Assembly (NCBI GenBank): GCA_016875195.1
Contig: VGRY01000007.1
Coordinates: 1 to 64,000, forward strand
DNA: 64,000 bases
Source of the DNA: Deltaproteobacteria bacterium
GTDB lineage: Bacteria; Desulfobacterota; BSN033; UBA1163
Direction of reading: 5' to 3'
The position numbers were made by a program, and so were the translations under genes. Positions 1 through 9,613 of this stretch are shown here, in pieces; positions within the stretch are counted from its first letter, which is position 1, and every line of letters begins with the position of its first letter. Under the pieces are notes generated by a model, which saw only the letters and a list, made by a program, of their open reading frames with translations, searched no databases and had not been told where the DNA came from.

Positions 1-1566
1 GTTCTTGAGCATGACTTCACAGGACCAAATGCAAGAGTCAAGAGAATTGACAATCAGGTGGCTGAGCAGAATCCTGCTCTTGCCTCGGTACGACCTGCGA
101 TGCGCCTGGCAACAACCATCCTTATGTATTCCTTCGGAGGCCTTCCGAGGGAAGAGAAAGGTGAACCTATACCCTCCGGGCTCTCTGAGAGAGAACTTCT
201 GGAAGTTTGTCTTTCCACGGAGATTGATAATCTCACAGCCCAATCTGTTTTAAAACGGTTGAGGGATGAGTGCCTCTATCTACATTACGACGGGGTCAAA
301 TATTGTTTCAAAACCACCTCGAATGTAAACAAGATTCTTGAAGACGAGGCTGACAATGTCCAGCCAAAAGAAGTGAAGGAATTCATCAAGCAGGACATGG
401 AGGCAAGGATTGGAAAGGCTACCAATGCTGCGATTATCTGGCCCGAGGAAAGTAGTAAGATCCCGGATGTTGAACCTCGATTTATACTTGCATATCTTCC
501 CTTGGAATTTAGTGAGAAAAAAGAGCGGGAGCAAGAGCAGAAAGCGATTGAATTGTTTACACAGTATGGGGTTCTACCGAGGCGGTTTCGAAATGGAATC
601 GGACTGGCCATATCAGACAGAAGGCAGCTCGAAGGGTTGCGCCGGGCAGCAAAATATTTGCTTGCAGTTGAAAGGGTTCGTTCAAAAAAAAGTTCTTATA
701 AATTGAACAAAGAGCAAATGGACCAACTAAAGGAGCGAGAGCAAACCGAAAAATCGGGTTTTGAGTCAGGGGTAAGGGTTCTGTATCCGGCTGTTCTGCT
801 TCTCAAGATAGAAAACGGTAAGCCCACCCTTGAGAAATTAGAGATTGGCGCCCGTCCATTAAAGGAGCACGGAGTCCATGAACGTCTTATAGAGTTTCTT
901 GGTAAGAATGTTTCGGGCAAACTCTTCGATGAATTTCGTGCATCAAAACTCTTTCCCCTTATGCAGATGGGAAGCGGTGCGGGTGAAAAGAAAGCAGTTG
1001 GAACAAAGATGATCCGGGATGTCTTCTTTGAAAGTTTGGATTTTCCCCGGGTAATAGAGGAAAAGGTTATAGCGTCTGCAATTGCCCAAGGTATTAAGGA
1101 CGGAATATTCGCTTACGCCTTGAAAAGCAAAGTCCTTGAAGAAGCTGGAAAGTATTTTGTGAAAGAAAGGGATGCAATATTTGGAAGGGCAGTATCATCA
1201 GATGAAATCGATCTTGATTCAGGTTTTATCCTTTTACCTGAATGCATTATTAAGGAAGCACCTCCAGGTCCAGAACCCACCCCTCCTGGCCCGATACCCC
1301 CAGGTCCAGTTCCTCCTGTACCAACTCCTGGTCCGAGACCCATTGAGCCGGGAAAGATTACCACGGTAAGAATGGAGATGAAATTAAATAAACAAACCCT
1401 TTACAAAACGTTCAATGCCCTTGGCAATCTGGCAGACATGGCAGGGGAAATAAAAATAGGTATTGAGGCTCAAAGTGGAGAGGGGTTTGACCGCAACCGC
1501 CTCCGCAACGCCGTCAAAGAACCCTTAGAAGAGGTGGGGATAGAGATCAAGATTAGTGAGGAGTAG
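1..1566 (+). CDS. DUF499-type ATPase, C-terminal part (cut by window edge)
   Basis: The frame is open from base 1, so the gene begins upstream and 521 residues are visible. A GTG at 58 would give a 502-residue protein, but the open frame before it continues the same domain, so I treat the gene as 5-prime partial. The stretch near residues 22-110 (RPAMRLATTI, SFGG, then a winged-helix-like LSERELLEVCL and a LYLHYDG/YCF tail) matches my memory of DUF499 proteins, large P-loop ATPases found beside DUF1156 methyltransferases in defence islands. A Pro/Gly-rich linker at about residues 421-448 separates a final domain of about 70 residues. The Walker motifs would lie upstream and are not seen. It is followed after 34 bases by an OLD nuclease, consistent with one operon. 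Family call from recognition only. Confidence 0.6.
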   Translation, partial: VLEHDFTGPNARVKRIDNQVAEQNPALASVRPAMRLATTILMYSFGGLPREEKGEPIPSGLSERELLEVCLSTEIDNLTAQSVLKRLRDECLYLHYDGVKYCFKTTSNVNKILEDEADNVQPKEVKEFIKQDMEARIGKATNAAIIWPEESSKIPDVEPRFILAYLPLEFSEKKEREQEQKAIELFTQYGVLPRRFRNGIGLAISDRRQLEGLRRAAKYLLAVERVRSKKSSYKLNKEQMDQLKEREQTEKSGFESGVRVLYPAVLLLKIENGKPTLEKLEIGARPLKEHGVHERLIEFLGKNVSGKLFDEFRASKLFPLMQMGSGAGEKKAVGTKMIRDVFFESLDFPRVIEEKVIASAIAQGIKDGIFAYALKSKVLEEAGKYFVKERDAIFGRAVSSDEIDLDSGFILLPECIIKEAPPGPEPTPPGPIPPGPVPPVPTPGPRPIEPGKITTVRMEMKLNKQTLYKTFNALGNLADMAGEIKIGIEAQSGEGFDRNRLRNAVKEPLEEVGIEIKISEE

Positions 1567-1600
1567 CTTTAAGTTTAATGCTAACTCTTGAGTAGTCACG

Positions 1601-3262
1601 ATGGCTGAATTGGCAACTTTAAAGATTTCAAAATTTAGATCAGTTGAAGATGCCACAATTGTATTCCCGCCGGGAATGCCTGTAGCTCTATTTGGGCAAA
1701 ATAACGCCGGGAAATCCAACATAATAAGGGCTTTTAACATAATTATGGGAGAACAGTACCCCAAAACAGTAACACTTGAAGAGTCGGATTATTTTTTGCG
1801 AGATCCTCACCAATTCATTGAAATCTTGGCTTCTTTTAGAACTCCTCTATGCGGCCAATACAGGGAATTACACTGGAGTCATCATCGTAACCGAGATCCT
1901 GAGCCAACTTTATTTGAGGGTAGAACAATATTTGGTACGAAAAAATGGCCCAAGAACGAAGAAAGGGATGATTGTATTGTCGTAATAATTGAAGCTGACC
2001 GTAACCTAAAGTATCAGCTAAGCTATGCCACTAAATACACAATGCTCAGCAGGTTGATGCACCGGTTCCATGATGTCCTTCATCAATATGAGGACGTAAA
2101 AGAAGACTTAAAACAGTGCTTCGCAAAGACGAAGGAAACTTTCGGTCAAATACCTGAGTTCCAGCAATTCTCTGACGCTCTGAGAGTAGACTTCTCATGT
2201 GCCCTCCAGTGTTGGTCCTACAAACTCGATATTGATTTTGAAGCATACAATCCTCTTAATTTTTTTCATGCGCTTCGTATTCAAGCAAAGGAGAATGAAG
2301 AAACAAGAGCCTTTGAAGAACTTGGCACTGGGGAGCAACAGATCCTAGCCATTTCTTTCGCTCACGCTTATGCAAAGGCTTTTAAAAGTGGTTTCATATT
2401 GGGTATCGAAGAGCCTGAGGCACATCTTCACCCCCTCGCACAGGCGTGGCTGGCTGACCGCATCAAGAGTATGTGTGAGGATGGGCTTCAATTTATCTTA
2501 AGTACCCATAGTCCATCCTTTCTAGACATCCTTTCCCTTCCTGGAATGCACCTGGTTTATAAAGATGGGAAAATAACCCGGGTCCGAAGGCATGATCAAG
2601 AGAGTTTGGTAAGAAGCTGTGTTGAAAAAGGTGCGAAACCACAGAAGTGTACGAGTGAGACCGTTCTTCCATTTTATGCAGCGAACAGCAGCGAAGAAAT
2701 CTTGAAAGGATTCTTCGCGGAGGCAGTGGTTCTTGTCGAAGGGCCAACAGAAGCTCTTGCTTTAACAATTTATCTCAAAGCTTGTGGGTGCGATACAAAA
2801 GAAAAAGGGATAGCCATGATTCCAACGCATGGGAAGGGGAGTATTCCTAGATATATCAGACTCTATGAAGCTTATAATATCCCGACCTATGCAATATTTG
2901 ATAACGATCCGGAAGATGACGGAGCCGGTAATAAAAGGAAAGAAATTATTGAGACTTGCGGATACACATTCGAGGAATGGTTAGTAGATGTAGAGGGAAT
3001 TTATGTGGAGAACAAATTCGCCATTTTTGGCGAAAGCTTTGAGAAGTCTCTTCGCAGGCAATTCAAAGAACTTGGATATGGAGAAAAAGAAGCTCAGGTT
3101 GTTACCAGATTCGGCCCGGCCAAACCCCTGGTAGCAAGGGAAGTGGCAAATCTTTTGGCTCTAAAGGGAAATGATGACAAGAGCTGGGAGCCGGTTAAGG
3201 ATCTCGCTTCAAAGATTGCTGCATTGGTTAAGAAAGGAGAAACGGAGGAAATTCCCTTCTGA
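1601..3262 (+). CDS. OLD-family endonuclease (ATPase plus TOPRIM)
   Basis: The 553-residue protein has an ABC/SMC-like ATPase half and a TOPRIM half. Visible are a Walker A GQNNAGKS at residues 32-39, a signature-like LGTGEQQ near 243, Walker B with ILGIEEPEAHLHP near 265, and an H-loop LSTHSPS near 303. The TOPRIM half has VLVEGPTEA near 377 and a FDNDPEDD acidic cluster near 433, the expected metal ligands. OLD proteins are ATP-dependent nucleases acting on DNA, and the family includes phage P2 Old and GajA of Gabija. No UvrD-like GajB partner follows, so this is not a standard Gabija pair. It lies 34 bases after the DUF499 gene and 36 before a small gene. The ribosome site before ATG 1601 is weak. 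Function as a defence nuclease is inference from family and context. Confidence 0.85.
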   Translation: MAELATLKISKFRSVEDATIVFPPGMPVALFGQNNAGKSNIIRAFNIIMGEQYPKTVTLEESDYFLRDPHQFIEILASFRTPLCGQYRELHWSHHRNRDPEPTLFEGRTIFGTKKWPKNEERDDCIVVIIEADRNLKYQLSYATKYTMLSRLMHRFHDVLHQYEDVKEDLKQCFAKTKETFGQIPEFQQFSDALRVDFSCALQCWSYKLDIDFEAYNPLNFFHALRIQAKENEETRAFEELGTGEQQILAISFAHAYAKAFKSGFILGIEEPEAHLHPLAQAWLADRIKSMCEDGLQFILSTHSPSFLDILSLPGMHLVYKDGKITRVRRHDQESLVRSCVEKGAKPQKCTSETVLPFYAANSSEEILKGFFAEAVVLVEGPTEALALTIYLKACGCDTKEKGIAMIPTHGKGSIPRYIRLYEAYNIPTYAIFDNDPEDDGAGNKRKEIIETCGYTFEEWLVDVEGIYVENKFAIFGESFEKSLRRQFKELGYGEKEAQVVTRFGPAKPLVAREVANLLALKGNDDKSWEPVKDLASKIAALVKKGETEEIPF

Positions 3263-3298
3263 TACAACGAACAATCTGAAAATTTCGAGGAGGTCACC

Positions 3299-3562
3299 GT
3301 GGGCAAGAAAGTGTATTTTTGTGTGGAATTTGATGATGATAATGAGGCCGAAAGGATAGCAATAAAGGTCCATGAGCTAGCAAATACACCAGAGGACGAG
3401 TTGCTTGAGGAGCCTCCGAAGTTGGAGATTTCTTCAGAAGAGCCTAAACTGGTTTATCCGAATGTTTTATTGGTCGAAAGAGTATCCGATCTCGGAGGCA
3501 AACCAGTAGTGGAAGGTAGAGTGGTTGGGGGTGAGAGAAGGTTTAAAATTGAATTTTTCTAA
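3299..3562 (+). CDS. Small acidic hypothetical protein
   Basis: I do not recognise this 87-residue protein. The GTG start at 3299 is supported by a strong GAGGAGGT site four bases upstream. The product is acidic, begins KKVYFCVEFDDDNEAERIA, has a Glu/Pro-rich middle (residues 30-55) and ends in two probable beta strands (VVEGRVVGG, RRFKIEFF). It lies 36 bases behind the OLD nuclease gene in the same direction, so it probably belongs to the same transcript. No function is proposed. Confidence 0.6.
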   Translation: MGKKVYFCVEFDDDNEAERIAIKVHELANTPEDELLEEPPKLEISSEEPKLVYPNVLLVERVSDLGGKPVVEGRVVGGERRFKIEFF

Positions 3563-3707
3563 TACAGGATTGGGGGTAAACTCATACAATACTTTTCCTA
3601 TGAGGCGAAACCTTCCGCATTTAAAAATTTAGATGAAAATAGGGCGGTTGTATTTATTAAAGGGAGCATAAAGCAGATGTTAAATAGGGTTAAGGAGGTG
3701 ACTTATC

Positions 3708-4007
3708 ATGTCAAGATCTAAGAGGGGTCAAGCGGAGCATGATAGGGAGGTTAGGCGTGTTGCCAATGAGTATTTGAGGAAGGGGTATAAGGTTTTGGCT
3801 GACCTTCCGAACTGGGAACAACCTGACACAATTAAAGGTGTGAGACCGGACCTAAGTGTTAAGAGAAAAGGACACGAGACCTTGATTGAAGTTGAGACTC
3901 CGGAATCGGCAGAAAGTGCAAGAGATGAAAAACAGAAGAAAGCCTTCAAGCAGTGGAGTGAGAAAAGCGAGCACAGACACTTCAGAAGAATCATCACCGA
4001 AGAATAA
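3708..4007 (+). CDS. Small restriction-endonuclease-like protein (possible PD-(D/E)XK fold)
   Basis: This is a 99-residue protein with an excellent AAGGAGGT site upstream of ATG 3708. A basic helix (REVRRVANEYLRKGY, residues 14-28) is followed by GVRPDLSVKR and TLIEVETPES, which resemble the D...(D/E)-x-K/E core of PD-(D/E)XK nucleases: Asp in RPD, then IEVET on the next strand. The usual catalytic Lys is not obvious. Next comes a helix with KAFKQWSE, a pattern I associate with small archaeal and bacterial nuclease-like proteins. It is the last gene of the defence-like run; 145 bases separate it from the previous gene. The fold is inferred from motif order only. Confidence 0.55.
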   Translation: MSRSKRGQAEHDREVRRVANEYLRKGYKVLADLPNWEQPDTIKGVRPDLSVKRKGHETLIEVETPESAESARDEKQKKAFKQWSEKSEHRHFRRIITEE

Positions 4008-4166
4008 GAAGCCTCAGAAGATTGACTGGGCCTATATATCCCCTACCTTAAAGCAACGGGGCAGATCCCCGTGATCCGTTTTACCGTTACCGTTGAGCTT
4101 ACCAAGCATGATTCCAGAAGAATTAATCCTTGAAGCTACGTAAATTATCGAACCCCTATTTTTTTG
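4008..4166. other. Intergenic spacer without recognisable gene
   Basis: No convincing coding frame is present between the defence-like genes and the metallo-hydrolase. I see no clear hairpin terminator, and only the promoter-like pair listed separately at the downstream end. Confidence 0.4.
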
Positions 4167-4196
4167 TTGACAGCGAATACCATTTGACTTTAGATA
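4167..4196 (+). promoter_or_regulatory. Putative sigma-70-type promoter for the MBL-fold gene
   Basis: A perfect -35 hexamer TTGACA at 4167-4172 is followed after 18 bases by TAGATA at 4191-4196 (or GATAAT at 4193 with 20-base spacing). The start codon of the metallo-hydrolase is 31 bases further on. Based on sequence match only. Confidence 0.45.
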
Positions 4197-4227
4197 ATAG
4201 GTAGAAGCAGAAAAATTGGAGTAAGTA

Positions 4228-4995
4228 ATGAAGATTAAGGTGCTGGGGTGTTCGGGGGCGGAGTTCCCGGGACGAAAGCCATCTGGTTTTCTTCTGGATG
4301 GTAAGATTCTGTTCGATGCGGGAAGTCTGACCAAAGCGCTGGATATCCGTGGACAGAGGAAGGTCGAGTACATCTTCATCACCCATGCCCATCTTGATCA
4401 TGTCATTGGCATTCCATTTCTTCTGGACAATATGATCGTCAGCAATATGTGGCATAGGGTCAACATCATCGGCATCCCTCATGTAGTGAAGACGATTAGA
4501 AAAAATATTCTGAACAATTCGATCTGGCCTGACTTCACCGCTATTCCAGATTTGGGTAATGGAGTTGTCAGGTTTATCAGTTTGAACCCGGAACATACGT
4601 TGGAGACCAACGGGTACATGGTCACTCCCTATAAGGTTCGCCACTCCGTTCCGGCGGCCGGATATCTTATTGAAGATGGAAAAGGGAAAAAGGTTTTTTA
4701 TACGGGCGACACAGGTCCAACAAGTTCAACCTGGAAGCAGCTAACGGGCAAAAAGATAGACTGCCTGATCATTGAGGTTTCATTCCCGGAAAAGATGAAG
4801 GACTTGGCCATCAAAACAGGGCATCTGACTCCGGGACTCTTAAAGAAAGAGATTGAAAAGATCGACCCACCCCCCCGGAGAATCTATATCACCCACCTCA
4901 AGCCCCAGTATTTCAAGACTATCCAATCAGAGATCAAAAGACTCCGGATTAAAAACCTTCAATTACTCAGGGATGGAGAAGTCTTTCGAATATGA
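4228..4995 (+). CDS. MBL-fold metallo-hydrolase, class II cyclic-nucleotide phosphodiesterase-like
   Basis: The 255-residue protein begins MKIKVLGCSGAEFPG, a strand-loop start shared by RNase Z and class II cAMP phosphodiesterases. The zinc motif THAHLDHVIG is at about residues 52-61, a second His in RHSVPAAGY near 140, an Asp in YTGDTGPT near 159, and a final His in ITHLKPQ near 226. Length and motif order fit a dinuclear-zinc phosphodiesterase of the cpdP/PDE type better than the longer RNase Z. The substrate cannot be read from sequence. A GGAG-type site precedes ATG 4228, and a promoter-like pair lies just upstream. It is transcribed towards the minus-strand phosphate cluster, so it is probably a single-gene unit. 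Confidence 0.75.
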   Translation: MKIKVLGCSGAEFPGRKPSGFLLDGKILFDAGSLTKALDIRGQRKVEYIFITHAHLDHVIGIPFLLDNMIVSNMWHRVNIIGIPHVVKTIRKNILNNSIWPDFTAIPDLGNGVVRFISLNPEHTLETNGYMVTPYKVRHSVPAAGYLIEDGKGKKVFYTGDTGPTSSTWKQLTGKKIDCLIIEVSFPEKMKDLAIKTGHLTPGLLKKEIEKIDPPPRRIYITHLKPQYFKTIQSEIKRLRIKNLQLLRDGEVFRI

Positions 4996-5449: not shown

Positions 5450-5580
5450 GGTAACTGTTTAAACTCTAAACACTAAACTCTAAATCCTAAACAAATCCAA
5501 AATCTCAAACTCAAAAGTATACACTATTATAGTTTTGTGTTTTGTACATTTGAGTTTGTTTAGAGTTTAGAGTTTTAAGT
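5450..5580. repeat. Intergenic inverted repeat of iterated CTAAAC / GTTTAG words
   Basis: The left arm repeats words such as AAACTCTAAACACTAAACTCTAAATCC, and the right arm carries the complementary GAGTTTAGAGTTTTAAGTTTAGG just before and into the end of phoU. The arms can fold into an imperfect AT-rich hairpin of more than 20 pairs. It may act as a transcript end between phoU and the GGQ gene, or be one of the word-repeat hairpins scattered through this window. Confidence 0.6.
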
Positions 5581-6264
5581 TTAGGGTTTTTCCTCAGCTT
5601 TGGCATCTGCATGATGCTTGATGACCAGGGCATCGACCATGAAGATCACATCTTCAGCAATATTGGTCGCATGGTCTGCAATTCGTTCGAGACACCGGCT
5701 GACGATCATGAGATGAACCGCTCTTGTAATCGTCTTCTGATCGGACATCATATAAGTCAGGAGTTCTCTGAAGACCTGGTCATTGAGCCCATCCACCAGA
5801 TCATCCCTTTCACAGACCGAACGGGCCAACTTGACGTCCTTGTTAACAAAGGCATCGAGTACATCTTTCACCATCGATTGAGCGATTTCGGCCATCCGGG
5901 GTAAATCAATGTACGGTTTAAGCTGAGGTTCCTGATTCAAAGAGAGGGCACGCTCTGCAATGTTGACCGCCTGATCACCCATCCGCTCAAGGTCCGTGAT
6001 GATCTTCATGGCTGAGGTGATGAAGCGAAGGTCCACGGCCATCGGCTGCCTCAAGGCCAAAAGCTTCAGGCACATCTTATCGATCACGAGCTCCATGTCA
6101 TTGATCTGTCTTTCCCGCTTGAAGATTTCATTTGCAAGATCCGAGTCCCTTTTTACCATCGACAGGACCGCATCGTGGATGGTTCCCTCCACCAGGGTGG
6201 CCATCTTCAAGAGGTTCTCTTTTAGTTCTTCCAGTTCCTTTTGAAATTGAGTCTCTGTGCTCAT
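5581..6264 (-). CDS. phoU: Phosphate signalling/transport regulator PhoU
   Basis: The 227-residue protein is fully alpha helical with two PhoU repeats of three helices each. Recognisable signatures are the repeated metal-binding acidic patterns near residues 65-100 (LKLLALRQPMAVDLRFI, DLERMGDQAVNIAE) and the matching second copy (SRCLERIADHATNIAEDV) near 188-205. PhoU restrains Pst uptake and signals to PhoR-type kinases when phosphate is sufficient. It is the last pst gene, 68 bases after the divergent pstB. A GGGAGAG site precedes ATG 6264. Length is normal for the family. Confidence 0.95.
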   Translation of the reverse strand: MSTETQFQKELEELKENLLKMATLVEGTIHDAVLSMVKRDSDLANEIFKRERQINDMELVIDKMCLKLLALRQPMAVDLRFITSAMKIITDLERMGDQAVNIAERALSLNQEPQLKPYIDLPRMAEIAQSMVKDVLDAFVNKDVKLARSVCERDDLVDGLNDQVFRELLTYMMSDQKTITRAVHLMIVSRCLERIADHATNIAEDVIFMVDALVIKHHADAKAEEKP

Positions 6265-7104: not shown

Positions 7105-7947
7105 TTACCTCTTTTTACGAACATACCGATTGAGCAGGAAGTTTGCTTTTATGTTAACCAGAAGGACCAGCAGGATCAACGCGGCTCCCGTTCCATAAGC
7201 CATCTCCATGGAGATCCCTTCCCGGGCAAGAATATAGAAATGGACGGACATGGTGCGAACAGGGGAGAAGAGGGAAGTCGGGATGATCAGCGATGATCCC
7301 GCCGTGAGGATGACCACTGCGGTTTCCTCGATGCTCCGGCAGACGCCCAAAATGATCCCTGTAAAAATTCCCGGCATGGCATTTGGCAAAATGGTCCGGG
7401 TCACGGTCTGCCATCTCGTTCCGCCCAAGGAATAACTGACTTCACGGAGGGCGTATGGGATTGCCCGGAGAGCCTCTTCCGCGGTGCAGATGATCGTGGG
7501 CAGGATCATAGCGGCCAGAGCCAAACCTCCGGAAAGGATTGACCACCCCATATTGAGATAGATGACAAAAAAGACAAACCCGAAAAGTCCGAAGATGATG
7601 GAGGGGACTCCCGCCAGACAGCCGATTCCAAAACGGATGACCCGGCTGACCTTCCCCTCCCGGGTATATTCTCCAAGAAAGATGGCTGTACCGACCCCTA
7701 GAGGCGTGGCTACGATAATGGCAACAATGGTCAGGGCAATGGTCCCGATGATGGGGGAAAGAATGCCTCCTTCGCGGCCCATGCTTCGTGGTGACTCGAG
7801 AAAGAAGCGAAGGCTCAGGACAGGAAGACCCTCCGACAGGACCTGGATAATGATCAGCGCCATCACGGTCATCGTTGACAAGGCCGCCATCCAGATCATG
7901 ATCTTTGCAGCGCCTTGGGTTAGATATCGTCTCCGTTCGATTCTCAA
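7105..7947 (-). CDS. pstA: Phosphate ABC transporter permease PstA
   Basis: The 280-residue inner-membrane protein has about six hydrophobic helices, starting at residues 15-40. The permease signature for contact with the ATPase is around residues 168-190 (SYSLGGTRWQTVTRTILP). Characteristic PstA segments IFGLFGFVFF and SLFSPVRTMSVHFYILAREG are present. It forms the membrane channel with PstC. The start overlaps the end of pstC by four bases (ATGA), the usual sign of translational coupling, and the divergent pstB follows ten bases later. Confidence 0.93.
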   Translation of the reverse strand: MRIERRRYLTQGAAKIMIWMAALSTMTVMALIIIQVLSEGLPVLSLRFFLESPRSMGREGGILSPIIGTIALTIVAIIVATPLGVGTAIFLGEYTREGKVSRVIRFGIGCLAGVPSIIFGLFGFVFFVIYLNMGWSILSGGLALAAMILPTIICTAEEALRAIPYALREVSYSLGGTRWQTVTRTILPNAMPGIFTGIILGVCRSIEETAVVILTAGSSLIIPTSLFSPVRTMSVHFYILAREGISMEMAYGTGAALILLVLLVNIKANFLLNRYVRKKR

Positions 7948-8798
7948 GCGGTCCTCCTTCTCGAAAGAACAAGGGCCAAAGAGTTTAACAGCATAATGAT
8001 CAGAAAGAGGACGACACCCGTGGCAAAGAGGGCCTGGCGATGATCCCCTATGGCATATCCCATCTCGATCCCGATATTTGTAGTCAATGTTCGCGCCGAA
8101 TCGAGGAAAGAAGAGGGCATCTTCACCGCATTGCCAAGAATCATGATCATTGCCATTGTTTCTCCCAGAGCGCGCCCCATCCCGAGGATGATGCTCGCCA
8201 CGATCCCCGACCGTGCAGCCGGGATAAGGACCCGCCAGATGGTCTCCCAGTGTGTGGCTCCAAGGGCGAGGGCCCCTGCCTTATAGGAGGGAGGAAGGGC
8301 TTTGATCGAGTCTTCTGAGATGCTGATGATGGTCGGAAGAATCATGATGCTCAAAATGAGAGAACCGGATAAGATGCTCAGTCCCGGACCTCCCAAAAAG
8401 TTCCGTACGAGAGGTACAAGGACGATCAACCCCCAGAACCCATAAATGACTGATGGAATTCCTGCCAGGACCTGAATGCCTGACCTCAGGATCATCCCGG
8501 CCCAGGGAGGGGTCCATTCGGAGAGAAAGACGGAACATGCCAACCCGAGAGGAATCCCAAGAAGAAGGGCTCCGAAAGTAACCCAGAAAGACCCCACGAT
8601 CATGGGCAAGATTCCAAAGGAACCCTGGCTCGGGACCCACCGCTGGCCCAGGAGGAATGATTTGGGCCCGATCTTCCATATCAATGGAAGGCCCTCGCCA
8701 AAGATGAAAAAAGCGATGAGGGCCAGAATGGAAATCGAGGAAAAAGCGATCAGGAGAAGAATTTTTTCAATAAACTTTTCTTTAAGTTCCACTCTCAT
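7944..8798 (-). CDS. pstC: Phosphate ABC transporter permease PstC
   Basis: The 284-residue membrane protein has a first transmembrane helix at about residues 10-33. PstC hallmarks include GIPSVIYGFWGL near 115 and the coupling loop GALALGATHWETIWRVLIP near 175-195. GRALGETMAMIMILGN near 208-223 is typical of PstC. It pairs with PstA. The start overlaps the end of pstS by four bases, and the stop overlaps the start of pstA by four bases, so pstS, pstC and pstA are tightly coupled. Length is slightly short for the family but complete at both ends. Confidence 0.93.
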   Translation of the reverse strand: MRVELKEKFIEKILLLIAFSSISILALIAFFIFGEGLPLIWKIGPKSFLLGQRWVPSQGSFGILPMIVGSFWVTFGALLLGIPLGLACSVFLSEWTPPWAGMILRSGIQVLAGIPSVIYGFWGLIVLVPLVRNFLGGPGLSILSGSLILSIMILPTIISISEDSIKALPPSYKAGALALGATHWETIWRVLIPAARSGIVASIILGMGRALGETMAMIMILGNAVKMPSSFLDSARTLTTNIGIEMGYAIGDHRQALFATGVVLFLIIMLLNSLALVLSRRRTA

Positions 8799-9613
8799 CC
8801 CCCGGAAGATTTGCTGATCATTGGAATAAGGCCTTCCGTTGAGAGAAGACGTTGCGCCTCAGGGCTCATCACAAAATCCAGAAAAGCTTTTGCCTCTCCT
8901 GAGGGCTCCTCACGCATCACAAAGAGGAAAGGCCGAACCAGTTGATATCTGCCCGTTTGAATATTCTCCAAAGCGGGCTCTACCCCGGAAATTTTCAGGG
9001 CTCTTACTCGTTCATTTACGATTCCGAGGGAGATGTATCCGATGGCATAGGGATCTCCTGTCACGACCTGGCGAATGGCGCCGTTGGAGTCCTGAACAAG
9101 CGCTTCAAGAGCAATCTCCTCTTTTCCCATCACCATTTTCTGGAATGCCTCCCTGGTTCCGGATCCCTCTTCCCTGGTGACCAGGATGATCGGTCTCTCC
9201 TTTCCCCCAACCTCTTTCCAGTTTCTTATCTTCCCGGAATAGATCTCCCTCACCTGAACAAGAGTGAGATCCCGAACAGGGTTATTCGGATTGACGATGA
9301 TGGCGATCGCATCCTGGGCAATTATCACGGAATAGAGGTCCTGCTCTTTTGAAATCAGATGACGGGAGGACATCCCGATATGGGCCGCTCCGGTCCTGAC
9401 CGCCTGAATGCCCGCGGTCGAGCCCCCTCCCTGGACGTAAATGTGAGATCGCGGGCGATGATGCATATATTCTTCGGCCAACAGTTCGGCAAAAGGCTCG
9501 ACGGAGGTGGATCCGGCTACCGTAATGTCCGCCTTGGACCGATGACAACCCACCGTTAAAAGGAATGGGAGCAGCAAAAGGAAACATAATAGGTGAGAAG
9601 CTTTTATGTGCAT
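8795..9613 (-). CDS. pstS: Phosphate-binding lipoprotein PstS
   Basis: I start the gene at ATG 9613, giving MHIKASHLLCFLLLLPFLLT followed by VGC, a lipoprotein signal with Cys at about residue 23. A longer frame to 9679 exists, but its extra residues (NWNLFGVWDLE) come from an intergenic word repeat. The mature protein is a periplasmic binding protein of the PstS family: ITVAGSTSVEPFAE at the start of the binding lobe, GSGTREAF for phosphate contacts, and IGYISLGIV. It captures phosphate outside the membrane and delivers it to PstCA. It is 273 residues, typical for the short PstS type in this phylum. A 300-base repeat-filled gap separates it from the upstream pstB. Confidence 0.9.
   Translation of the reverse strand: MHIKASHLLCFLLLLPFLLTVGCHRSKADITVAGSTSVEPFAELLAEEYMHHRPRSHIYVQGGGSTAGIQAVRTGAAHIGMSSRHLISKEQDLYSVIIAQDAIAIIVNPNNPVRDLTLVQVREIYSGKIRNWKEVGGKERPIILVTREEGSGTREAFQKMVMGKEEIALEALVQDSNGAIRQVVTGDPYAIGYISLGIVNERVRALKISGVEPALENIQTGRYQLVRPFLFVMREEPSGEAKAFLDFVMSPEAQRLLSTEGLIPMISKSSGG

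Follow-up and report, generated by a model that had tools for sequence, protein, structure and literature searches.

The window, a 64,000-nucleotide stretch of a Desulfobacterota contig, opens with the tail of a defence operon whose upstream half lies on a second contig of the same assembly, C92. The two contigs overlap exactly over window positions 1-127 (127 bases). The co-directional genes recovered on C92 are those for HmaA, a SIR2-like protein and HmaB, followed by a gene for a Schlafen/AlbA_2-HATPase protein and by the 5' part of the HmaC gene. The successive gaps along the operon are 1, -35 (-8 if a later start is taken), 33, 137, 34, 36 and 145 bases. The features around the join and at the right edge are as follows.

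C92, L003:2-1363, minus strand: 5' part of HmaC, joined through the exact 127-base overlap with the window
1..1566, plus strand: DUF499/HmaC AAA+ ATPase, 3' part (codon 413 to stop), 5' part on C92
1601..3262, plus strand: OLD ATPase-TOPRIM nuclease (Pfam, PADLOC), 553 aa, 34 bases after HmaC
3299..3562, plus strand: acidic 87-aa ORF, GTG start, gap of 36 bases, GAGGAGG ribosome-binding site
3708..4007, plus strand: 99-aa REase_AHJR-like ORF (PD-(D/E)XK superfamily; Pfam PF18743), gap of 145 bases, AAGGAGG
4228..4995, plus strand: metallo-beta-lactamase-fold hydrolase (Pfam)

The metallo-beta-lactamase-fold gene is a host gene at the right edge of the operon and lies outside the system; in congeners it adjoins lptF-like or pyrimidine-type genes (neighbours named by eye). 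A preliminary description of the window had given the coordinates and order of its first four genes (1-1566, OLD at 1601-3262, then the 87-aa and 99-aa ORFs) correctly. Its prediction of a DUF499/DUF1156/helicase operon also proved right, as the upstream genes on C92 encode a Snf2 helicase and a DUF1156 methyltransferase.

The Hma core

The HmaC fragment in the window matches PADLOC HmaC (E 2e-26) and NCBIfam DUF499_antiphage (E 4e-11) and by itself has no match in Pfam, and the part on C92 matches Pfam DUF499 (2e-32) and PADLOC HmaC (4.8e-76). The joined protein has 933 aa, and its residues 5 to 926-933 align in one piece with HmaC from six other loci at 44-46%. HmaB is assigned by PADLOC (1.7e-130) and DUF1156 (1.1e-25) and contains the DPPY motif within TDPPYYDN. 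HmaA, the Snf2 helicase (PADLOC 1.9e-85), carries a C-terminal NOV_C nuclease-like domain (7.7e-21) with apparent D...EVKG residues visible by eye. Its N-terminal part is absent from the assembly; that part and the Tudor domain lie beyond the end of C92. The closest core relative, in genome G177, shares 79% with HmaA and 84% with HmaB and has no SIR2 gene between them.

DUF3780, which the preliminary description had suggested looking for upstream, was not found among the scanned genes of C92 and window positions 1-4995, a set in which the helicase N-terminus falls beyond the contig; the locus is thus not the DUF3780-bearing (Type-2) form. No PglZ gene occurs in the recovered 13-kb stretch, which starts within the helicase gene. 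The core, once taken for a composition without a name, is that of Hma, or Type-1 BREX-Related (BR), systems.

The OLD nuclease and its neighbours

The OLD protein exceeds the curated Pfam cut-offs for both AAA_15 (1.7e-25) and OLD-like_TOPRIM (2.4e-19) and matches PADLOC Old (1e-41). Its TOPRIM domain (residues 371-436) is fused to the ATPase in the same chain, and the nearest solved structure is that of Thermus scotoductus OLD (6P74; E 2.3e-55 with a four-row profile). Across eight relatives, G32, N34, G37 and K38 of the Walker A region, E271-P272-E273, H303 and the TOPRIM residues E380 and D434 are invariant.

Is this nuclease part of the operon, or does it only lie next to it? OLD may be an independent, stand-alone Class 1 defence gene that merely shares a defence island with Hma, a reading that we consider possible but doubtful. 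A 2023 review (PMC10568477) describes Class 1 OLDs as single, isolated genes. Consistent with that definition, the OLD relatives in G044, G282 and G360 (3 of 10 loci) have no adjoining restriction gene, and OLD is missing from all 13 other Hma regions of the same phylum (L046-L058; tblastn at 1e-4); OLD is therefore not a general Hma partner. However, 6 of the 10 loci, this one counted, have OLD abutting restriction, BREX or Hma genes with gaps of -4 to +34 bases, and the adjoining systems are of five types (BREX, type II, IIG, III and Hma), an arrangement at odds with the isolation stated in that review. A compact set of type III RM genes with OLD occurs in Bacillus badius. Among viral contigs, 80 OLD relatives were kept, mostly partial matches with 22-51% identity in the best segment, and a phage search at 1e-20 gave no OLD match. 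A search for further OLDs, covering G044's order and G000's class, added no new one, and the genome contig collection contained a single OLD locus, on the contig of the congener G215. The work of Krishnan et al. 2020 on ABC ATPases may already list OLD beside restriction systems.

The G215 locus also argues against a stand-alone OLD. In a blastn comparison, window positions 1463-3281 match positions 7542-9363 of G215 contig C153 at 79%, and the homology begins within the HmaC 3' end and ends 19 bases past OLD. G215 retains just the last ~100 bp of HmaC, followed by OLD in broken frames. Since the HmaC tail still precedes OLD there, the HmaC-OLD pair is old in the genus, already joined in the ancestor shared with G215, and, by an argument from one congener, OLD seems to have decayed where HmaC was lost. 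A change of partner by the G215 OLD, from Hma to a BREX-like system, was considered and rejected, because the HmaC tail precedes that OLD; the methyltransferase/helicase system at this locus adjoins OLD but is not a proven partner. The G215 contig ends in a repeat, with the gene preceding this system on its far side, and none of four candidate contigs continued the sequence.

Junction genes and the two small genes

Accessory genes occupy three core junctions: the SIR2-like gene between HmaA and HmaB (A|B), the Schlafen/AlbA_2-HATPase gene between HmaB and HmaC (B|C) and OLD after HmaC. The locus is thus an Hma core with all three junctions filled simultaneously. The SIR2-like assignment is weak (Pfam SIR2_2 at E 0.0039, 17.7 bits against a cut-off of 24.5; PADLOC Aga_SIR2 at 2.7e-5); three of five plasmid relatives are annotated as SIR2 family proteins, and the search for a solved structural relative found none.

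The accessories could be passive cargo, with the Hma core serving as a preferred landing site to which they have no working tie. The A|B junction holds differing genes in 11 of 14 readable Hma loci (SIR2, Schlafen, DUF4062-HATPase, YhcG/DUF1016, HD, UvrD, RelE-HigA and unnamed genes), as such a site would, and B|C carries an insertion in 4 of the 14. We nevertheless regard passive cargo as unlikely, given that many of the inserted genes are of defence or toxin type, that Schlafen/HATPase proteins recur and that, in a published survey, phyla retain the same classes of nuclease (PMC12839542).

The two small ORFs are probably genes, as their codon usage supports. Their in-frame codon scores are 0.314 and 0.222, compared with 0.19-0.26 for the six larger operon genes from which the codon table was itself built. 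Read in the two wrong forward frames, the small ORFs score -0.07 to 0.11; on the reverse strand they score 0.13 and 0.06. The 87-aa protein contains about 20 D/E against 12 K/R (counted by eye). It matches no family of Pfam, PADLOC or NCBIfam, a search of 246 other genomes gave no relative at E<=0.01, and the genome contig and plasmid collections gave none. Three weak matches (E 0.05-0.08) were taken as chance, and L060, the one inspected, showed nothing. The AHJR-like ORF scores 28.6 bits against the PF18743 cut-off of 26.1 and has matches in five other genomes. Gene contexts were read in G209, G120, G043 and G173; G087 was left out because its match falls in a 693-aa frame. The relatives in these contexts (L149-L152) are stand-alone genes of 125-146 aa that share, by eye, a PD...EVET-like pattern, and no OLD or Hma gene adjoins them. 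The AlphaFold pLDDT values of the 87-aa and AHJR-like proteins, 42.6 and 48.8, are too low for a structure search.

Co-occurrence of the four genes elsewhere had been suggested as a check, and OLD and the two small genes as a possible added module. The OLD part of this proposal holds: OLD is an added module, joined to HmaC already in the ancestor shared with G215. The small genes do not follow: neither lies near OLD or Hma in the other genomes searched and both are absent after the G215 OLD, so they are not shown to belong to an OLD module. A separate three-gene system of OLD, the 87-aa gene and the AHJR-like gene downstream of Hma, to which co-direction, strong ribosome-binding sites before the small genes and the codon bias of real genes would lend themselves, is very improbable given those same absences in the genomes searched, and was rejected. 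Both small genes share the direction of the operon and belong to it by position only, as cargo whose relevance is unproven.

Relation to known systems and proposed function

Hma comprises the HmaA helicase, the HmaB methylase and the HmaC ATPase (PADLOC, PMC8565338). The present locus has HmaA, HmaB and HmaC in that same order and differs in the SIR2-like and Schlafen-HATPase genes within the core and in OLD, the 87-aa gene and AHJR after it. It resembles Type-1 BR systems (PMC12839542) in its DUF499 ATPase, its DUF1156 N6-type methyltransferase and its Snf2 helicase, which ends in a nuclease-like domain, and in that neither DUF3780 nor PglZ was seen. As defined, Type-1 BR systems have an active nuclease domain in that position, methylate host DNA and restrict phage. 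Type-2 BR, in contrast, has a stand-alone DUF3780 and an HKD nuclease on the helicase. The Type-3 BR locus has PglZ and iSTAND. OLD itself is a single ATPase-TOPRIM chain with no adjoining UvrD or reverse transcriptase, like Class 1 OLDs (P2 Old, 6P74), and is unlike them in that it is no isolated gene but a cistron at or near the end of a restriction-like operon. An OLD ATPase, a TOPRIM domain and a defence role are shared with GajA of Gabija and AriA/AriB of PARIS; however, no GajB-type UvrD helicase is present here, where HmaC and the 87-aa ORF flank OLD, and the ATPase and TOPRIM domains are fused in one chain, whereas PARIS has a separate TOPRIM protein, AriB.

According to a 2026 paper, OLD-TOPRIM and Schlafen back-up effectors adjoin DUF499 BR systems, with OLD next to BREX/BR systems in 1242 taxa and Schlafen in 1017; SIR2 and AHJR have no occurrences in its main text (PMC12839542). 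None of the other genomes searched yielded this exact gene set. Because such back-ups beside such systems are already published, the locus is a variant of Hma/Type-1 BR and not a new kind. We propose, with a probability of roughly 0.8, that it is an Hma/Type-1 BR restriction-like operon with nested back-up effectors. This reading builds on the observed gene content and order, the intact motifs, the HmaC-OLD co-ancestry and the broken OLD where HmaC was lost.

How might such an operon work? We infer every function, including that of the accessories as back-ups. Judged by their families, the HmaB amino-methyltransferase would mark host DNA, and HmaC and HmaA would together form the complex that locates unmarked DNA and attacks it. 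OLD would be a companion that fires if the core is blocked or if the core produces broken DNA, and would thereby supply a second layer through degradation or abortive infection.

More broadly and only tentatively, a clade of Class-1-like OLDs may act as general "restriction companions", added as a cistron to unrelated self/non-self DNA systems (Type-1 BR, BREX, HaeII-type II, IIG and type III), that sense the failure or inhibition of the restriction complex, or its DNA ends, and deliver a second nuclease strike. Loss of the partner would make such an OLD useless or harmful, and it would consequently decay as in G215. PARIS and PrrC act in a comparable manner; the proposed companion would not be tied to one system. 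Whether Class 1 OLDs defend alone is called an open question in the 2023 review (PMC10568477), and OLDs that abut several unrelated restriction types offer a concrete, testable partner for them. Such OLDs would then be expected to respond to anti-restriction proteins of phages.

Operon architecture and classification

Base 1 of the window is the end of contig C7 rather than a gene boundary. A second copy of window bases 1-127 is located in the opposite orientation at the extreme end of contig C92 (9172 bases) of the same assembly, generating an exact 127-base overlap. Assemblers leave overlaps of this sort where contigs adjoin. The DUF499 frame stays open across the joint for 933 codons, and the joined HmaC aligns in a single piece, from residue 5 to residues 926-933, with proteins from six loci of other genomes (L046, L048-L051 and L053) at 44-46% identity. 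On this sequence evidence, we treat the C92/C7 joint as real. The operon genes are co-directional.

Operon and 3' flank, 5' to 3'
C92: HmaA-like Snf2 helicase, last 651 residues (Helicase_C, 2.4e-25; NOV_C, 7.7e-21), remainder beyond the contig end
C92: SIR2-like protein, 377 residues, starting 1 base past the helicase stop
C92: HmaB, DUF1156 methyltransferase, 974 residues, starting 35 bases inside the SIR2 gene, or 8 with a later ATG
Between HmaB and HmaC: SLFN_AlbA_2 plus HATPase_c_4 (Schlafen-HATPase) protein, 551 residues
C92 into window 1-1566 (+): HmaC (DUF499 ATPase), 933 residues, 5' of OLD
1601-3262 (+): OLD (ATPase-TOPRIM nuclease), 553 residues, 3' of HmaC
3299-3562 (+): 87-residue ORF, 3' of OLD
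3708-4007 (+): AHJR-like ORF, 99 residues, last gene of the run
220 bases past the operon: metallo-hydrolase gene
Beyond it, opposite strand: arfB-, phoU- and pst-like genes (named by eye), ordinary host genes

No contig continuing HmaA 5' of the C92 end was found in the assembly. By eye, the metallo-hydrolase gene adjoins lptF/lptG-like genes in genomes G140 and G215 and pyrimidine-type genes in G407 and G408, and the arfB-phoU-pst block of congeners has different neighbors and no Hma gene there. The operon looks inserted in the source genome, because its flanking host genes occur in congeners without Hma and beside other neighbors. Window 5457-5590, between the arfB-like and phoU-like genes, is a genus-wide interspersed repeat: at ~67-95%, G215 has dozens of matches and other congeners have several.

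The preliminary description regarded the composition as unnameable. PADLOC and Pfam nevertheless assign the core genes to Hma (HmaA, 1.9e-85; HmaB, 1.7e-130; HmaC, 4.8e-76), a name from Payne et al. 2021 (PMC8565338). The text consulted of Rakesh and Krishnan 2026 (PMC12839542) describes Hma genes as 'DUF499-centred BREX-Related' (BR) systems, in which Type-1 comprises an ATPase, a methyltransferase and a helicase-nuclease, Type-2 adds DUF3780, and Type-3 adds PglZ and iSTAND. The DUF1156 and helicase genes predicted 5' of base 1 are both present on C92; DUF3780, also sought there, and PglZ were not found in the 13 kb recovered (C92 plus the operon part of the window), and thus Type-1 appears to fit best. 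The same text describes auxiliary or back-up effectors next to BREX and BR loci, among them OLD-ABC nucleases in 1242 taxa and Schlafen-histidine-kinase-wHTH proteins in 1017. Therefore, the DUF499-OLD adjacency, confirmed here, is a theme already in print as far as that text goes. SIR2 and AHJR have no occurrence in its main text, and no paper combining DUF1156 with SIR2 and defense was found in the literature searched. We conclude that the locus is a genuine, already classifiable defense operon in an unusually loaded form.

Accessory genes of Hma loci

HmaB matches occur in 37 of 247 phylum genomes, including the source genome. We compared 13 further Hma regions from the 12 best-matching genomes, together with three plasmid records out of the 99 that match HmaB. 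Among 14 loci, including our own, whose helicase and methyltransferase genes share a contig and a strand, the HmaA|HmaB junction holds at least one ORF in 11 (L047-L051, L053, L055, L058, L186, L187 and our own) and is empty in L052, L054 and L056. Its contents are Schlafen or HATPase proteins, YhcG/DUF1016, HD, UvrD, RelE-HigA, SIR2 (our locus only) and unnamed ORFs. This junction is a cargo slot for varied genes, many of defense or toxin type. The HmaB|HmaC junction is filled in 4 of 14 loci with both genes visible (our own, L056, L058 and L188), and OLD is found in none of the 13 other genome regions. In L188:8165-16124, on Thermus thermophilus HB8 plasmid pVV8, the DUF1156 gene is separated by HicAB toxin-antitoxin genes and two HTH genes from a Swt1-family HEPN-domain gene, likely the HEPN-fused DUF499; a Fic gene stands in front.

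Relatives of the SIR2-like protein occur in 2 of 243 other genomes; in one of them, G038, the HmaB match lies ~two million bases off. Five plasmid records also carry relatives, with no Hma genes beside them in the two examined.

The 87-residue and AHJR-like ORFs both look like real genes by codon usage, and the preliminary description tentatively grouped them with OLD as a module added to the DUF499 set. This grouping is not supported: neither gene was found beside OLD or Hma elsewhere in the genomes searched, and both are absent at the G215 OLD locus. The 87-residue protein has no clear relative in genome, contig and plasmid searches. AHJR relatives in four contexts examined (125-146 residues) lack OLD or Hma neighbors and extend further at the C-terminus. 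We leave both genes out of the proposed mechanism.

OLD and its possible partners

The nearest solved protein to OLD in a profile search is Thermus scotoductus OLD (6P74, E 2.3e-55), assigned to Class 1 in PMC10568477, whereas GajA of Gabija matches more weakly (1e-18). The catalytic-type residues are intact (Walker A G32, G37 and K38; E271-P-E273; H303; TOPRIM E380, E384 and D434) and invariant across eight relatives. A four-row, sequence-only profile (E<=1e-50) detected OLD in 8 of 395 phylum genomes, and tblastn detected it in three plasmid records, two sharing one plasmid-length element with an identical protein, giving 10 distinct loci.

Neighbors of OLD
Source genome: HmaC, gap 34
G250 (L163:7599-11742): C5-methylase, HaeII-type endonuclease and Vsr, overlapping run, OLD overlap 4
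G062: Eco57I-type IIG enzyme, overlap 1; then PLD/NgoFVII-like gene
G296: within a BREX locus of DUF6079 ATPase, Fic-like gene (by eye), OLD, methylase (overlap 4) and helicases
Bacillus badius plasmid pPM400 (L041:9949-16623): type III Mod-Res, gap 25; OLD relative, 36% identity
Mesorhizobium plasmid: IIG enzyme, gap 28
G215: HmaC fossil
G044: no defense gene beside OLD
G282: no defense gene beside OLD; uvrA-like gene precedes
G360: OLD broken, adjoins integrase

In the congener G215 (contig C153), an OLD ~80% identical to ours is split across broken frames. Nucleotide homology (blastn) spans window 1463-3281: it starts ~100 bases short of the HmaC stop, crosses the 34-base gap and OLD, and ends 19 bases beyond the stop of OLD. 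The rest of HmaC is missing. The simplest story for this single case is that HmaC and OLD were joined before the species split and that G215 lost the Hma core, after which OLD decayed, the kind of pattern that dependence of OLD on the core would predict. A methyltransferase and helicase system, best matching HmaB/PglXI and BrxHII/HmaA/DrmD, lies 5' of the remnant; its ATPase is absent from C153. This stretch (L045:117-7013) encodes the methyltransferase, a 140-residue unknown, the BrxHII/DrmD-like helicase and a 225-residue ORF whose sequence, by eye, shows a PD-(D/E)XK-like pattern.

The observed gene set, order, spacing, intact motifs, HmaC-OLD shared ancestry and broken OLD where HmaC was lost are accompanied by a proposed mechanism. 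Judged by their named families, HmaB would modify host DNA and HmaC/HmaA would restrict; experimental support for HmaA is cited in the text consulted of PMC12839542. The OLD, Schlafen-HATPase and SIR2-like proteins may be second-line effectors, with OLD responding to core inhibition or to core-made DNA ends.

OLD abuts a restriction, BREX or Hma gene in 6 of 10 loci and the remains of one in a seventh, and has neither in three. Clustering in islands alone would not easily explain five unrelated partner types at gaps below 35 bases, although ten loci are a small sample. The Bacillus badius type III RM-OLD set, being compact, would suit a test of whether OLD accompanies restriction. A possible companion role beside unrelated restriction systems is what makes the OLD family worth following.
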